Source: a virus
Virus record (IMG/VR): IMGVR_UViG_3300032242_000818
Coordinates: 100,718-164,717 of that record
Direction: 5' to 3' (one strand)
Length of the DNA: 64,000 bases
Part shown: in pieces, positions 21,081 to 55,155 of the stretch
Layout: every line of letters begins with the position of its first letter
How positions within the stretch are numbered: position 1 is the stretch's first letter
Translations under genes and position numbers: made by a program
The notes under the pieces: model-generated
Databases searched by the model: none
What the model saw: the letters and a program-made list of their open reading frames with translations, nothing else
Told to the model about the DNA's origin: nothing

Positions 21081-22232
21081 TTAGAATCCGAAAATAATTG
21101 AGTAACCAAGATAATCTGACTTCACAGATTGATCAAGGTTGTTAATAGAAACAATACCGTCTAATCGCAATACACCGCAATCATACGAAAGTGGAACTGA
21201 ACCACCGACTGAGCCTAGATCTTCTGTTGCAATAATATTGGAATCATATACATAACCAAGATCTGAAGTTGCTTGAGCTGCGAAGGTTGCCGAAGAACCA
21301 GAAGTACCAGTGTATCCAATTTGAATACCACCACTGGTATTAGTAATTTGAATATATGAACCAGCACTAATACGGTTCAGAGTAAATCCATTTGAGGAAT
21401 TACCGATTAAAATTTGACCAACTTCAGGTAGAGTTGTTTGGCCAGTACCACCCTGCGCAATACCCAATTGAGTAGTCAGAGTTAAAGAATTAAGAGTTGT
21501 ATCACCAGCATTAAGTGTACTACTTAAAGTAGTTGCACCAGTAACACCCAGTGTGCCACCGATAGTAGTATTACCAGTAATCCCCATAGTTGATGAGAAC
21601 GTACCAGTTGTGCCAGTAATACCAGCTGCAACAATATTAGCAAGAGTTCCAGTAATTACTTCAGAACTATTGGTTGTATTTAATAGGAAACGAATATCAC
21701 CAGTTGCTTGTTTATAACCGATAAAACCGTATCTGTTAGCACCAGAATAATAATTGAATTCTAGACCACGATCTTTACTATCATTAGAAGATAGTGTGCC
21801 ACCACCAACAGCAGTACCAATTCTAATAATTGGATCAACAATAGTAGTTACTGTTGAGTTAATTGTTTCAGTAGTACCATTAAGTGTAATATTTCCAGTT
21901 ACAGTTAATGATCCACTGATGGTAGTATTACCAGTAACACCAAGAGTGCCACCAATAGTAGTATTACCAGTAACACCTAATGTTCCACCAACTGTGGCAT
22001 TACCACTTAACCCTAATGTTGCTCCAGTGAAACCACCTGCACCAAGTGCAAGATTAGAACCTGAGATTACGTTTGTTAGATTCGCACGAGCAGTTTCATG
22101 ACCACCAGCAGAAGAACCATCATGGATATGCAATGACTGGTTAGTAGTATCAAGCGTGAGTTCTCCCGCAGCACCAGTAAATGTGGTGTGTTGGGCAGCA
22201 GTACCTCTTCTAACTTGTAATTGAATGGCCAT
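21081..22232 (-). CDS. Second fibre with Mtd-type N-terminal domain
   Basis: 383 residues. The N-terminal domain LQVRRGTAAQHTTFTGAAGE followed by DTTNQSLHIHDGSSAGG is paralogous to the fibre at 16585. A triplicated GNTTIGGTLGVT repeat follows (21905-22010), then a beta-rich section common in fibres (DPIIRIGTAVGGG and RGLEFNYYSG). The C-terminus carries two DLG(Y/S)V segments (SDLGYVYDSN, EDLGSVGG). It is packed ten bases from its neighbours in a fibre operon. Receptor binding or fibre-connector roles are inference. Confidence 0.72.
   Translation of the reverse strand: MAIQLQVRRGTAAQHTTFTGAAGELTLDTTNQSLHIHDGSSAGGHETARANLTNVISGSNLALGAGGFTGATLGLSGNATVGGTLGVTGNTTIGGTLGVTGNTTISGSLTVTGNITLNGTTETINSTVTTIVDPIIRIGTAVGGGTLSSNDSKDRGLEFNYYSGANRYGFIGYKQATGDIRFLLNTTNSSEVITGTLANIVAAGITGTTGTFSSTMGITGNTTIGGTLGVTGATTLSSTLNAGDTTLNSLTLTTQLGIAQGGTGQTTLPEVGQILIGNSSNGFTLNRISAGSYIQITNTSGGIQIGYTGTSGSSATFAAQATSDLGYVYDSNIIATEDLGSVGGSVPLSYDCGVLRLDGIVSINNLDQSVKSDYLGYSIIFGF
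21905..22010 (-). repeat. Tandem 36-base repeats in a fibre gene
   Basis: The GNTT(I/V)xGTLGVT unit (12 residues, 36 bases) is repeated about three times in succession and once more further on. On the plus strand the word attaccagtaacacc recurs every 36 bases with small changes. In-frame expansion or contraction of such repeats changes fibre length. Confidence 0.75.
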
Positions 22233-27664: not shown

Positions 27665-27916
27665 TTAAAATTCGCCACCTTCCATATTCTGCGCATCTAG
27701 CGTAGTGGAAGCTGTCCATTTATTTGTGCTTGTTTTGTAAACAAGTATTGACCCATTTACTTTACCATTAGTAGTGACATCGACATCGGCGATGTTTGAC
27801 ATAGATTCAACCACAGCTGGTGCAGCTAAATTTGTTTGTGAAAGCGTAAGAACACCTTCTGAAACTGCGACCGATAATGCTTGGTCTGGGGTTACGACTG
27901 CTATTGTATCTGCCAT
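27665..27916 (-). CDS. Small fibre-associated structural protein (ends GGEF)
   Basis: 83 residues. A Val/Ala-rich first half is followed by SNIADVDVTTNGKVNGSILV and YKTSTNKWTASTTLDAQNME. The 'GSxLVYxxxTNKWxAxxTL' pattern is shared with ends of fibre proteins in marine T4-like phages. Its ATG overlaps the end of the 111-residue gene (27916). It may be a small tip or connector subunit for the adjacent 928-residue fibre, which ends in a similar GGTY tail; that is inference. Confidence 0.6.
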   Translation of the reverse strand: MADTIAVVTPDQALSVAVSEGVLTLSQTNLAAPAVVESMSNIADVDVTTNGKVNGSILVYKTSTNKWTASTTLDAQNMEGGEF

Positions 27917-28251
27917 TATATTTGTGTAATTTGTGGGGTTATTGTTACGATACCTTCTACAACTCTGGTTTTTGTTCCAGAAGCAGAGGTAATCTCCACG
28001 TCATATAGCCATCTCCCTGCGGGAATAGCTGAAGAAGCTGAAGCGGATAGTTGGAGTCTCACTTTACCGTTAGCTGCATCATAAACTGATGCTGTAAAGG
28101 CGTAAGCTGTGGATGAACTGTAGGACTTTCTCATCTGAGAAGCCACAGTGTAATTGCTTAAATTCAAAGGTTGTCCGTTGGTAGAACTGACAGTAATTAT
28201 GTTACTGTAATCACTTCCAGCGTCAACGAAAAGATTGCTAATAGTAGCCAT
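27916..28251 (-). CDS. Baseplate/fibre protein with BppU-like Ig domain
   Basis: 111 residues. The pattern DYSNIITVSSTNGQPLNLSN, YTVASQMRKS, IPAGRWLYDVEITSASG and RVVEGIVTITP is that of a small beta-sandwich domain used in baseplate upper proteins and in marine T4-like phage structural genes. It is the first gene after a perfect TATAAATA late box (28285-28292), starting the fibre operon that runs to 16585. Confidence 0.7.
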   Translation of the reverse strand: MATISNLFVDAGSDYSNIITVSSTNGQPLNLSNYTVASQMRKSYSSSTAYAFTASVYDAANGKVRLQLSASASSAIPAGRWLYDVEITSASGTKTRVVEGIVTITPQITQI

Positions 28252-28284: not shown

Positions 28285-28292
28285 TATTTATA
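28285..28292 (-). promoter_or_regulatory. Perfect T4-type late promoter TATAAATA
   Basis: The minus strand reads TATAAATA, identical to the T4 late consensus, 34 bases upstream of the 111-residue gene. It lies in the gap after the radical SAM gene, so the long fibre operon has its own late start independent of the enzyme. Confidence 0.75.
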
Positions 28293-28318: not shown

Positions 28319-29704
28319 CTAAATTGCAGCAATCGGAATAATTTTTTTAGGTTTACGAGTCTTTTCTGGTTTACCATTGACCCACCAAAAGATATCTTTA
28401 CGATCTTCTCGTTGGGGTCCATTGATATAAATTGGAATATGGCCAGTCATAAGTTCAATTCCATTTGCAAAAACTGTAATATTATCACTAAATGCATTAT
28501 TACAAGAAGCATCCCATAAAGGACCAGTTAAAAACATGCACGCACCTTTGCATATATGTACTACAGGACAAGTTGGACAATCTTTACGATCGCTCCAATG
28601 TGTAGCTGTTTTAACCTCTATATCTTTTAAATTACTAACATGGCCAATATGATGAGATAAACCAGAGGGGTTTACTGAAACTGTACTTACATTCTGACAA
28701 GTTAAAACATTACCATTTAAATCAACTGCAATATTTTCAGACTTATCCATACCACACTTTTGAGCAACAGTTTCTAACCTTCTTCCTGTTGCAATAGTTT
28801 CAACAAAATTCTTAATTTTTTGATTTATAGTTATAAATTTGGATGCTTTATAATCTCGAATTTCAAGATAAGAAGAATTTCTAAATCTAACATCTTCTTC
28901 TTCATCTAACAATGAGTTAGCCAAACCACCATCATCATAAGCATCAACAAAACTACCCTCACCGATAACAAGAAATTGTAAATATTCTTCACCAAGTTCT
29001 TTAATTACTATGTTCTCAAAAAACTTTTGAATATTTTCCCTACTAATATTTTTAGAGTTTATCATTGCATTTAGGGATATCTTATTCTTTGGAGCAAGAC
29101 GTTTAAATAAGTCTATGATAGCATCTTTGGATTTTGGGTCATCAAATGGATCTGGACCGCGAACAGGCTGTCCTGGACCATCATGTGATATTGCAACAGT
29201 AAAATTATACTTTTCTAAAAATTCATTTTTTTCAGAATCCAAAATACTACCATTTGTAATAACTAAATTATTGCAGTTTGGATATTTTTTGTTTATTGCT
29301 TCAACCAATGGTTTCATTGTTTTCCAGTAAACAAAAGGCTCACCACCCCAATATTCAAATGTTACTTCGGAACCCAAACCATCAGCACCACCCTCGAACC
29401 AAGTAGACATATTATCTACAAATGGTTGAACATCGTCAGGGTTGGTAGAATCTGCTGTTGGAACAAATCTCTGAGAACAATAGTCACACTCAAAATTACA
29501 TGAGAGACCTAATTGTATTTTTACAACTCGTAAGTTTTTCTTGCCAATTTCAATTTTTACTTGATTAGTCACATCTCTTGTTTCTGAATCTGAAATAACA
29601 TTTTTGCCATCTGGCCATGTTAATTTGCTAGAAACAGAATCGTAATTTACAAATGTTTTTTCTTGAGTAACTGGATGAACTAAATCAATTTTGAATAAAG
29701 CCAT
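28319..29704 (-). CDS. Radical SAM/SPASM maturase embedded in the fibre operon
   Basis: 461 residues. The radical SAM cluster motif CNFECDYC (C69, C73, C76; CX3CX2C) binds a [4Fe-4S] and SAM, and EYWGGEPFVYW is the glycine-rich GGEP SAM-binding motif. The C-terminus has the full SPASM/auxiliary-cluster pattern: CX13GX4C (CGMDK...LTC), CX2CX5CX3C (CPTCPVVHICKGAC) and a last Cys in WDASC. SPASM enzymes (anaerobic sulfatase maturases, sactipeptide, ranthipeptide and related RiPP enzymes) modify residues in proteins or peptides. It lies in the same strand order as the Cys-tailed fibre at 30570-31682, a candidate substrate. A terminator separates it from the upstream gene. No peptidase or transporter lies nearby. 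Confidence 0.92.
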   Translation of the reverse strand: MALFKIDLVHPVTQEKTFVNYDSVSSKLTWPDGKNVISDSETRDVTNQVKIEIGKKNLRVVKIQLGLSCNFECDYCSQRFVPTADSTNPDDVQPFVDNMSTWFEGGADGLGSEVTFEYWGGEPFVYWKTMKPLVEAINKKYPNCNNLVITNGSILDSEKNEFLEKYNFTVAISHDGPGQPVRGPDPFDDPKSKDAIIDLFKRLAPKNKISLNAMINSKNISRENIQKFFENIVIKELGEEYLQFLVIGEGSFVDAYDDGGLANSLLDEEEDVRFRNSSYLEIRDYKASKFITINQKIKNFVETIATGRRLETVAQKCGMDKSENIAVDLNGNVLTCQNVSTVSVNPSGLSHHIGHVSNLKDIEVKTATHWSDRKDCPTCPVVHICKGACMFLTGPLWDASCNNAFSDNITVFANGIELMTGHIPIYINGPQREDRKDIFWWVNGKPEKTRKPKKIIPIAAI

Positions 29705-29721
29705 ATTATATCCTATAATGT

Positions 29722-29753
29722 AAAAAAGTCTGGTGGATTTCTCCTACCAGACT
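29722..29753 (-). terminator. Rho-independent terminator upstream of the radical SAM gene
   Basis: Minus strand: AGTCTGGT, an 11-base loop, and ACCAGACT are followed by six T. It ends the operon of the Cys-tailed fibre and the 261-residue protein and probably lets only a fraction of transcripts continue into the radical SAM gene. A TAATAAATA late-like box lies directly before the hairpin, and a TATAAT element 4 bases before the enzyme's ATG could also act. Confidence 0.8.
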
Positions 29754-29771
29754 ATTTATTATGTAAAATTA

Positions 29772-30557
29772 TTAAGCCAATACTTTAGAGAATGTATTAA
29801 CATTAGTAAATAATTTGTGCCCAGCTTTAACTTGTACAGTAGTACCAGATGTTAAACTATCTGTTAAGATATTAAAAGATCCAATACCATTAGTTAAAGA
29901 AACTACATTTCTATCTAGAATTCCAGTAACTTGAGATATATAGATTTTATCTAAAGATGTGTCTGTTGTAGAAACATTAACTAAAATTGTATCACCAGGA
30001 GATACAGTTGTTTGTGTAGTAGAAAGAGTTACTGGAGCAAAAATAGTTTTCCATTTAGTAAATCCTGTTGGAGCAGTACCTACATTAGTAACAACTGTTG
30101 TTTTATGACCAATGTCATTTCCGTTAGAAGGATCTGGCGATTTAACAATATATGAGAATGTTGTAAAATTACCAGATTCACTATCAACAAAAATTCTAAA
30201 AGGTATTTCTGAATGACCATCACCAGAAAAGAATATATTAGAAGATTTATTAAGTTTTGTTTCATCTAAAATAGAAACTAAATCATTTTTTGTAATAGAG
30301 CGTTCATCAGAAGAAGAACCCAACAGTTCTTTGTCTTCAAATCCAAAAATACTTTGTGAACAAAATCTATTTTGTGATTGTAATACATCTAAATCTAATG
30401 AGATATTACATAAAATTTTATTATTATCTTCAACATGAATAAATTGATATTTTAAATTTGTTTCAGTAATATTAAAATTATGTGTAAACGATGCTTCGCT
30501 GGATGTTATTCTTGAAAAAATTTCAGCAGGAGAATCTGTATTGTAAAAATTAGTCAT
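29772..30557 (-). CDS. Unknown protein between Cys-tailed fibre and radical SAM enzyme
   Basis: 261 residues; I do not recognise a family. The N-terminal ~150 residues are mixed, with DSPAEIFSRITSSEASFTHN and SGDGHSEIPFRIFVD. The C-terminal ~90 residues look like an Ig-type beta-sandwich (LSTTQTTVSPGDTILVNVST, then GIGSFNILTDSLTSGTTVQV), as in virion appendages. Only two Cys are present (ILCNIS, NRFCSQS). The gene is 12 bases downstream of the fibre stop and just before a terminator. Candidate roles are a fibre partner, an adaptor presenting the tail to the enzyme, or a second substrate; all are inference. Confidence 0.65.
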   Translation of the reverse strand: MTNFYNTDSPAEIFSRITSSEASFTHNFNITETNLKYQFIHVEDNNKILCNISLDLDVLQSQNRFCSQSIFGFEDKELLGSSSDERSITKNDLVSILDETKLNKSSNIFFSGDGHSEIPFRIFVDSESGNFTTFSYIVKSPDPSNGNDIGHKTTVVTNVGTAPTGFTKWKTIFAPVTLSTTQTTVSPGDTILVNVSTTDTSLDKIYISQVTGILDRNVVSLTNGIGSFNILTDSLTSGTTVQVKAGHKLFTNVNTFSKVLA

Positions 30558-30569
30558 TATTATTTCCTA

Positions 30570-31682
30570 TTAGCAGTTACAGTTACAGTTACAAACAGCA
30601 CCAACCTGACATGAACCGTAGTTACCATGCTTGGCCATATAGACTGAAGTAACACGTGGTGGGTAGACGTTACCATGGCCACCAGATCCTTGGCCAGTAC
30701 CATCCAAGAAACCACCATAATTACCTAAGTTGTTACCATATTGTGACAAGAAATATGGCCATCCGCCTTGAGCAGAACCAGCAATACTTGAATATGATAC
30801 ACTTGAAACAATGACCGCACCAGTAGTACCTTGAACCGATGTAACAGGAACAGAAACAATAACGGCACCAGTGTTACCTTGAACCGATGTAACAGCAGCA
30901 GAAATAGTTGGGTTACCAGCAACACCATCGCCGTTAGTAACAGAGATACCAGCACCAGCAGTAATAGTACGACCAGCAGCAGTACCTGCACCAGTCAAAG
31001 CAACCATACCAGTAGAAACACCAGAAACTGCAGATAATTGGGCATTATATGCTTGTACGTTAGTTCCAATAACCACACCAAGCGTAGAACGAGCAGTAGA
31101 TGCATCAGCATCCGCCATATGACCACGCATATAAGTAGAAGATGTATAGACTGAAGCAGTTCCTAAACCAGTAAAATATGGAGTAGCATTCGCTGCAGAA
31201 GTTAAACCAGCAAGAGCATTGCCAGAAGCGGTATATGCTTGCACATCAGTGCCGATTGCTAAACCAAGAGCAGTACGAGCACCAGAAGCAGTCGTAGCAC
31301 CAGTGCCACCACCTGCAATAAGAACTGTATAGTTCAAACTTGCGGCGATAGAAGCAGTACCAGTTAAAGCAGCAGTAATAGTACCAGCAGAAAAGTTACC
31401 AGATGCATCACGAGCAACGATAGTATTTGCAGTATTTGTAGAAGCAGCAGAGCGAGCACCAGAGTTAAACGTCAGAGTATCTGAGTTTAAACCAGAAGCA
31501 GCTGCATATCCAGTAACAGTATTGAGTTTTGCTAATACGTCTGCTGCAGTATAACTCGCAGCGGTTTGGCCGAGAGCAATCTGAGTAGAAATATTTGAGA
31601 AGTTTTGATCGACTTCAGCATTGGTAAGAGGGCTACCTTTGGTAGATCTTAGCGTAATCGATGGAGCAGTTATAGATGCCAT
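30570..31682 (-). CDS. Fibre protein with C-terminal CNCNCNC tail
   Basis: 370 residues. The N-terminus [20 protein letters not shown] is a common phage fibre start. The body has GTDVQAYxA(Q/S)-type repeats (three visible) and duplicated TSVQGxTGAVIVS units. The C-terminal ~75 residues are Gly/Tyr/Asn-rich, ending [19 protein letters not shown]. All five cysteines of the protein lie in the last 13 residues (358, 364, 366, 368, 370). DNA confirms TGT/TGC codons alternating with AAC before the TAA. Such a tail looks like a RiPP core, a metal-binding tip or a thioether/disulfide knot. The downstream radical SAM/SPASM enzyme makes enzymatic modification plausible. Confidence 0.8.
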
Positions 31683-54259: not shown

Positions 54260-54739
54260 ATGGCAGATGAAATCGTACAGGAGAAGAAGAAAGATGAAGA
54301 CTGGATGCAAAAGAAATGGCGCCCAGCCATGGGGTGGATGTATATGGTTGTGTGTTTCTTTGATATGGTTATATTTCCAATTCTGTGGGCACTCGTACAA
54401 ACAATACAACACCAACAACTAGTTCAGTGGAACCCACTAACACTTCAAGGTGCTGGTTTATTCCACGTTGCCATGGGTGCTGTTTTAGGTATTGCCGCAT
54501 TTGGTCGTACACAAGAAAAGATCGCAGGGAGCGCAAACAATGCACCGACTACTACCCCACCAGCAACAACAGCCTTCCCAACTGCAATGCCAGCAGCACC
54601 TAGCGTATCTGCGCCAGCACCTAGCGCATTCCCAGCCCCAGTAGCTGCTCCAAGCAGCTTTGGAAGCGCATCTGCAACAAGTTTCAGCGCAGGATTCCCA
54701 GGCGATCCACCAACAAGGAACACTCGTAACGACGGATAA
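54260..54739 (+). CDS. Holin (3TM-family type)
   Basis: 159 residues. After a charged N-terminus (MADEIVQEKKKDEDWMQKKW) come RPAMGWMYMVVCFFDMVIFP followed by ILWALVQ, and a second hydrophobic helix GLFHVAMGAVLGIAAFG. The pattern RPxMxWxYxxVCxFDxxxFP is a known phage holin family. The C-terminal ~70 residues are Pro/Ala/Ser-rich and soluble. It lies in the plus-strand late operon between gp54 and gp16; the ribosome binding site is AAGGAGAT. It would time release of the muralytic enzyme, perhaps the SleB-like hydrolase at 61541-62137. Confidence 0.8.
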   Translation: MADEIVQEKKKDEDWMQKKWRPAMGWMYMVVCFFDMVIFPILWALVQTIQHQQLVQWNPLTLQGAGLFHVAMGAVLGIAAFGRTQEKIAGSANNAPTTTPPATTAFPTAMPAAPSVSAPAPSAFPAPVAAPSSFGSASATSFSAGFPGDPPTRNTRNDG

Positions 54740-54741
54740 AT

Positions 54742-55155
54742 ATGAAAATCGATGATACATTATCAGAAGTGTTTAACACAATACCTCAAGAATCAAAACC
54801 CCTTGAAGTGATTGATAGTAATACTGGCGAGGTTATACCTACAACAGAAGGTAAAATCGAAACAGATTATGAAACAACTAGATCGAACCTTCGTGAACTT
54901 CTAATAACTGGGCAGAATGCTTTGTATCATGCGTTAGAAGTGGCGAAACAATCTGAACACCCACGTGCTTTTGAAGTCGTGGGTAACCTTATGAAACAAC
55001 TTGCTGATGTAAACCAACAGTTATTAGATATACACCAGCAAAAACAAAAACTTGATGCTCCAAAGAAAGGTGCTGATAAAGTGACCAACAATGCTATCTT
55101 TGTAGGTAGCACTGCTGAATTGAGTAAAATGATTAAGAAAATGCAAGGAGAATAA
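54742..55155 (+). CDS. 16: Terminase small subunit gp16
   Basis: 137 residues (T4: 164). The helical core DYETTRSNLRELLITGQNAL, YHALEVAKQSEHPRAFEVVG and NLMKQLADVNQQLLDIHQQK is a gp16 signature, with an acidic N-terminus and short basic end. gp16 regulates gp17 ATPase and DNA recognition during packaging. It is on the opposite strand and about 41 kb from gp17. It follows the holin by two bases. Confidence 0.88.
   Translation: MKIDDTLSEVFNTIPQESKPLEVIDSNTGEVIPTTEGKIETDYETTRSNLRELLITGQNALYHALEVAKQSEHPRAFEVVGNLMKQLADVNQQLLDIHQQKQKLDAPKKGADKVTNNAIFVGSTAELSKMIKKMQGE

Follow-up and report, generated by a model that had tools for sequence, protein, structure and literature searches.

Most of what is known of peptide maturation by radical S-adenosylmethionine (SAM) enzymes comes from work on secreted peptides and enzyme cofactors. 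We analyze here a putative enzyme of this type that is encoded close to a fibre-type protein with a cysteine-rich C-terminal end (the Cys tail) in a 64,000-nucleotide stretch of viral DNA, positions 100,718 to 164,717 of the 164.7 kb virus record IMGVR_UViG_3300032242_000818, referred to below as the window. The enzyme belongs to the same family as phrog_1802, a “radical SAM domain-containing protein” that includes gp030 of Achromobacter phage JWF and is catalogued without function or substrate. With the PapB/QhpD-type SPASM thioether maturases it shares the combination of radical SAM and SPASM domains and, presumably, action on a Cys-containing protein or peptide. It differs from them in its candidate substrate, the C-terminal end of a fibre-type protein, and in that no recognition element (RRE) of the kind used for ribosomally synthesized and post-translationally modified peptides (RiPPs), leader, protease or transporter was seen at the locus; instead of the CX3D/E substrate motif of PapB we find CxC/NxxC runs, and the score against the PapB family is 62.3 versus 340 bits. 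The best fold match is the anaerobic sulfatase-maturating enzyme (anSME), whose target is a Cys within a full-size protein, whereas its catalytic Asp and its extra Cys at auxiliary cluster I (Aux I) are absent here and the Cys tail has no CxPxR motif. The iron-binding HxH fibres (T4 gp37, Alteromonas phage R22Y; PMC11705849) resemble the Cys tail in the alternating register of their coordinating residues, but here the residue is Cys, it is found at the extreme C-terminus, and a dedicated radical enzyme accompanies it. A possibly related case comes from pelagimyophages, which are T4-like marine phages: cassettes with radical SAM genes are reported from their host recognition cluster, a fibre-rich variable region (PMC7029224), in passages that give no substrate, Cys tail or mechanism. 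A search of open-access papers gave no account of the pairing of such an enzyme with such a tail, and this remark on pelagimyophages came nearest to it. RiPP-type maturation by radical SAM/SPASM enzymes is itself known, and what appears to be new is its application to a phage fibre-type protein.

Our main conclusion is that the enzyme is probably a RiPP-like maturase of the Cys tail on a fibre or fibre-associated protein retained in the virion, most likely forming thioethers. That it acts on the tail at all is very probable from the comparison of loci given below, and, provided that the tail is modified, we give thioethers slightly better than an even chance. The genes in question lie on the minus strand and are ordered, from right to left, as the fibre-type protein of 370 residues (30570-31682), a middle protein of 261 residues (29772-30557) and the enzyme of 461 residues (28319-29704). 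The fibre-type protein, which is the proposed substrate, matches structural/tail-fibre families (phrog_697, E 1.6e-18; phrog_24210, E 7.3e-12). As a first-pass annotation of the window had noticed, its only five Cys are all in the last 13 residues, for which the chance under random placement is 2e-8. The Cys tail (30573-30611, minus strand), the proposed modification site, carries an enzyme-linked NCNCNC motif that is conserved in loci L001, L003 and L004. It is the only CxC tail on a protein-coding open reading frame (ORF) of the window; a second CxC frame at 54485-54760 is antisense to coding ORFs.

The linkage between enzyme and tail was quantified in both directions. Searching for the enzyme gave 80 loci in viral contigs, 80 in bacterial genomes, which were counted whether or not they were prophage, and the cultured Achromobacter phages JWF and 2-1. 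For the forward test we used the non-redundant loci (below 90% identity) with at least 4.5 kb upstream and at least 1.2 kb downstream (n = 77) and looked for a same-strand protein with a CxC run, (Asn/Ala/Asp-Cys)n, within 6 kb of the enzyme. Such a protein was present in 74 of the 77 loci, and in 52 of these 74 the run ends at most 5 residues from the C-terminus, while a loose version of the same search gave hits in 7 of 40 unrelated one-strand stretches of 12-15 kb, spurious frames included. The co-occurrence in related genomes, which the first-pass annotation had proposed as a check, is thus borne out, and the pattern also holds in bacterial genomes, where the enzymes have 32-51% identity. 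As a control, another phage radical SAM protein, Campylobacter phage CP220 gp023, had no CxC-run neighbour, and a search of plasmids for the enzyme returned only distant sulfatase-maturase-like matches.

In the reverse test the enzyme was not used at all; viral contigs were scanned for NCNCNC-stop DNA, giving at least 118 matches. Among the matches listed, the ORFs of at least 80 residues with at least 2.5 kb downstream (n = 38) had the enzyme in 33 cases and the middle protein likewise in 33, as compared with 0/35 for either of them at spurious frames shorter than 80 residues (P = 1e-15). The reversed motif, CNCNCN-stop, was accompanied by the enzyme in none of 78 stretches. Finally, a paired test was made on relatives of the window fibre with enough flanking DNA, where the enzyme was present with 10 of 10 Cys-tailed relatives and with 0 of 34 tailless ones (P = 4e-10). 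The three tests link the enzyme gene to a conserved core of the kind expected in a RiPP precursor and support the earlier suggestion that the fibre tail is the substrate; at the level of sequence comparison, it is strongly supported that the enzyme and the Cys-tailed protein are inherited together as an enzyme-substrate pair. The loci share ancestry, and the counts are therefore not independent events, a concern that is addressed by the paired test and by two further observations, namely the separate origins of Hint fusions and the movement of the run between protein bodies.

At least nine run-bearing bodies lack detectable similarity to each other. In L375-L377 the fibre relatives are tailless and the run is carried on a separate gene of 122-133 residues directly downstream. 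This small gene is followed in L376 and L377 by a middle-type gene of about 330 residues and then the enzyme; the L375 contig ends before these positions. Since the run is relocated in these loci while the enzyme stays, the run must be able to move between protein bodies. Two other loci (L025 and L047) have three tandem ORFs of about 85 residues upstream of the enzyme, each ending with NCNCNC or NCNCACNC, and many of the candidate substrates are not fibres but small proteins containing 13-31 Cys.

A Hint (intein-like) domain abuts the Cys run in eight loci, an arrangement that, on the enzyme tree, must have arisen three times or more. In these domains (CFPAGT...MADG) the N-terminal Cys1 continues the run or follows within a few residues, and a block-B-like His (SEEH/TGDH or equivalent) is found in all eight; PF05203 scores 46.6 bits in L081 (cut-off 32.1) and 31.9 bits, near the cut-off, in L264. 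Cleavage at Cys1 is known Hint chemistry, and in these loci it would leave the run as the mature C-terminus. That Hint came to lie beside the run repeatedly and independently is the best indication of a need for a free C-terminal run in this system. Phages JWF and 2-1 belong here as well, with NCNCDCNC runs that adjoin the enzyme and are followed by a Hint domain, and the middle protein was not detected at these two loci. The first-pass annotation had stated that no transporter or protease is present; none was recognised beside the enzyme among the part of the window ORFs that was searched, but elsewhere Hint could self-cleave.

Several loci have less usual Cys-rich genes. In L069 (9300-10202), L073 (9286-10239) and L074 (9446-10321) a Cys-rich gene 3' of the enzyme has a C-terminal extension (SKIICTKLHxLG...) which looks membrane-associated. 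A single Thalassobacter stenotrophicus genome carries the enzyme at several loci (L253, L255, L275), of which L253 combines a small gene ending NCNCNCRC with two 2-oxoglutarate (2OG)-Fe(II) oxygenase-like genes. At L279 (3521-4917, Parasutterella muris) a distant enzyme relative is found with tandem CxxC-type repeat genes (CTTVNCTTVNC, HCSHCTYCAYC) and no CxC, with two overlapping Cys-rich ORFs downstream. Unrelated phage proteins of about 184-202 residues ending with NCNCNC and lacking the enzyme in the retrieved flank were seen in L154 (2672-3226), L174 (2777-3349) and L143 (4896-5450), and further in L162 (11273-11881) and L185 (10451-11059); enzyme-less NCNCNC proteins possibly represent another Cys-tail or metal-binding system.

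The last 20 codons of the window fibre show synonymous differences only when compared with L002, which argues that the Cys tail is maintained by selection and not by a DNA repeat. An AAYTGY microsatellite artefact could be ruled out from this synonymous codon variation, from the position of the motif at a stop codon in real ORFs, from the varying X residues and from the complete lack of enzymes at the reversed motif. The X residues in the C-X-C runs are Asn in 202, Ala in 69 and Asp in 35 out of 338 positions (60%, 20% and 10%), and several tails combine His-rich with Cys-rich stretches (DPHHHHNNCTNCNCNC).

The enzyme itself (phrog_1802, E 8.9e-62) contains the complete set of motifs that the first-pass annotation had claimed, at the claimed spacings: the radical SAM motif C69-x3-C73-x2-C76 (codons at 29477-29500, minus strand), GGEP at residues 120-123, and the SPASM Cys region C317-x13-G331-x4-C336, C376-x2-C379-x5-C385-x3-C389 and C401 (28502-28756, minus strand). 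Neither GGEP nor any of the motif Cys varies across 45 aligned homologues with identities down to 33%, and this includes all seven Cys of the SPASM pattern (CX9-15GX4C - CX2CX5CX3C - C). The enzyme scores 33.2 bits against TIGR04085 (SPASM; cut-off 27) and 27.3 bits against PF04055, slightly below the cut-off of 29.5; its place in the radical SAM superfamily is indicated by the CX3CX2C motif together with fold matches to radical SAM structures. The AlphaFold2 (AF2) model has a predicted local distance difference test (pLDDT) score of 92.7 and finds anSMEcpe (4k39, E 1.5e-14) as the best PDB match; it also matches ChlB, CteB, SuiB, TigE and SkfB, with the EpeE/YydG epimerases as distant matches. 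The nearest NCBIfam model, matched by 45 of 45 members, is the ranthipeptide thioether maturase PapB (best E 1e-24), followed by the nif11, geopeptide and QhpD maturases.

The middle protein is beta-rich with a C-terminal immunoglobulin (Ig)/invasin-like domain (AF2 pLDDT 92.6) and appears as a conserved third component, being present in 56 of the 77 non-redundant enzyme loci and matched by hidden Markov model in 153 of the collected loci. Its conserved C-terminal domain (VYLExxxGxLxKxRV...GDxVxVKxGxK; 29775-30032, minus strand) was delimited from the alignment and has distant Ig-like/intimin matches, while the best structural matches of the protein are unnamed phage proteins and a search of the phage collection gave no match. 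The gene starts at most 60 nt from the substrate gene in 43 of 55 loci. Hint loci usually lack it, as does one group of loci with small Cys-rich proteins. No RRE-like fold was seen in its beta-rich predicted structure. Genes resembling 2OG-Fe(II) oxygenases, the identity of which is supported by Pfam at some loci, are found in 35 of the 77 enzyme loci; none was found in the window. Neither the middle protein, the oxygenases, the Hint-fused substrates nor the small separate Cys-run proteins were part of the first-pass annotation. The comparison of loci shows, as far as sequences can, a pairing of enzyme and tail, an exposed C-terminal run and a co-conserved partner.

We infer from this that the enzyme catalyzes directly on the tail, that the chemistry is thioether formation and that the product has a role in host binding. 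According to this mechanism the enzyme would generate a 5'-deoxyadenosyl radical, and Cys sulfurs would become linked to carbon atoms of neighbouring residues within the NCNC run, so that a flexible tail would become a compact tip able to resist protease and oxidation. The beta-rich/Ig-like middle protein probably docks on, presents or caps this tip, and the 2OG-Fe(II) oxygenase found in about half of the loci may modify it further. Binding of a substrate Cys to the Aux I cluster has been reported for CteB (PMC8172795), and the seven-Cys SPASM set leaves room for a CteB-like arrangement. Known sactipeptide acceptors are Asn, Ala, Asp and Arg (PMC8172795), and thioethers to Asn have been described at NxxC (PMC8326336), a motif present in every NCNC. 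Thioethers are favoured because of these acceptors and NxxC motifs, the Asn, Ala and Asp residues at X, and the maturase profiles, with epimerisation, metal loading and other oxidations as the less likely outcomes.

Some results weigh against this interpretation. The enzyme is far under the cut-off of every named maturase family (for PapB 62 versus 340 bits), and no RRE-like fold was seen in its N-terminal part, neither in the predicted structure nor in the structural matches; residues 1-65 are modelled as strands and a loop without a winged helix. Ala at 20% of the X positions is a poor fit to beta-carbon thioethers. A recognisable CxC protein is missing at three enzyme loci (L217, L254 and L267), in the first of which the fibre body is retained and its C-terminus lost, and the enzyme is missing from the retrieved flanks of the five NCNCNC-ending genes from other families named above. 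The location of the Cys-tailed protein in the virion is suggested by the gene context.

A possible but unlikely alternative is that the enzyme is a peptide epimerase, producing a tail of alternating D-Asn/D-Ala/D-Asp and L-Cys that folds as a D,L-alternating beta-helix with free or disulfide-bonded Cys. The strict X-C-X-C alternation with N, A or D at X does resemble the every-second-residue pattern of polytheonamide (PMC8326336), and the distant EpeE/YydG fold matches point in the same direction. However, proteusin epimerases possess the radical SAM cluster alone, together with a C-terminal RRE, and two clusters are present in EpeE (PMC8326336), as opposed to the full SPASM Cys set found here; the profile scores are better for thioether maturases, and epimerisation has no need of a Cys at every second position. 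About equally improbable is a metal- or cluster-binding tip, with CxC layers on the axis of a trimer and an enzyme that tunes it or helps load it. CxC shares the i, i+2 register of the HxH iron motifs of phage fibres such as T4 gp37 (PMC11705849), and the mixed His-rich/Cys-rich stretches of several tails would fit as well, but the many small non-fibre substrates with their 13-31 Cys are ill-suited to a three-fold axis, and simple metal binding requires no radical SAM enzyme.

It is less probable still that the middle protein or a host molecule is the true substrate and the Cys-tailed protein only a functional partner. The middle protein adjoins the substrate gene and is as strongly linked as the enzyme in the reverse test (33/38 among the matches listed), but it is missing from 21 of the 77 loci as compared with 3 for the CxC protein, and what the enzyme is linked to is the short tail as such, whether carried on fibres, small proteins or Hint fusions; the middle protein was set aside as substrate on account of this weaker linkage. 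Oxidation of a tail Cys to formylglycine by a sulfatase maturase, as suggested by the anSMEcpe structural match and by the annotation of the JWF copy as “anaerobic sulfatase-maturating enzyme”, is very improbable and was rejected on residues and score: Gln (Q337) follows the second SPASM Cys in 45/45, at what we take to be the position of the catalytic Asp of anSME, the extra Aux I Cys (CGMNGTC) has no counterpart among enzyme positions 318-325, the anSME family score is 62.9 bits versus a cut-off of 349, and the tail is without CxPxR. Viperin (PADLOC pVip, 50 bits) was rejected, since neither the pairing nor the presence of every SPASM Cys fits it.

With respect to the surroundings, the genes on either side give matches to phage tail and structural families. 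The claim of one operon in the first-pass annotation is not certain, since the genes for the middle protein and the enzyme are separated by a terminator-like hairpin (29727-29753; called on the plus strand, with T runs flanking it on each side), and the enzyme may be transcribed separately. A T4 late-promoter-like sequence (TATAAATA; 28285-28292, minus strand) is found 5' of the gene at 27916-28251, and the fibre region also encodes a protein (21081-22232) with a Major tropism determinant N-terminal domain (PF18454, E 3.6e-15).

Taken more widely, we lean towards thioether maturation of the Cys tail being one case of a widespread virion maturation, where phages with several kinds of tail would make a tip of multiply cross-linked (Asn-Cys)n by means of a dedicated SPASM enzyme, often accompanied by the Ig-like protein and by 2OG-Fe(II) oxygenases, with an intein-like domain exposing the end in some lineages, so that a RiPP-like product in the particle contacts the host. 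Radical SAM chemistry is here apparently aimed at a structural phage protein, and phrog_1802, previously without a substrate, is supplied with a candidate. The isolated Achromobacter phages JWF and 2-1 and the genome-sequenced Limnohabitans strains offer testable systems. If the interpretation is correct, receptor-binding tips would carry enzymatic cross-links that are missed by sequence-based models of host recognition, and fibres expressed recombinantly in the absence of the enzyme would have an incorrect tip.

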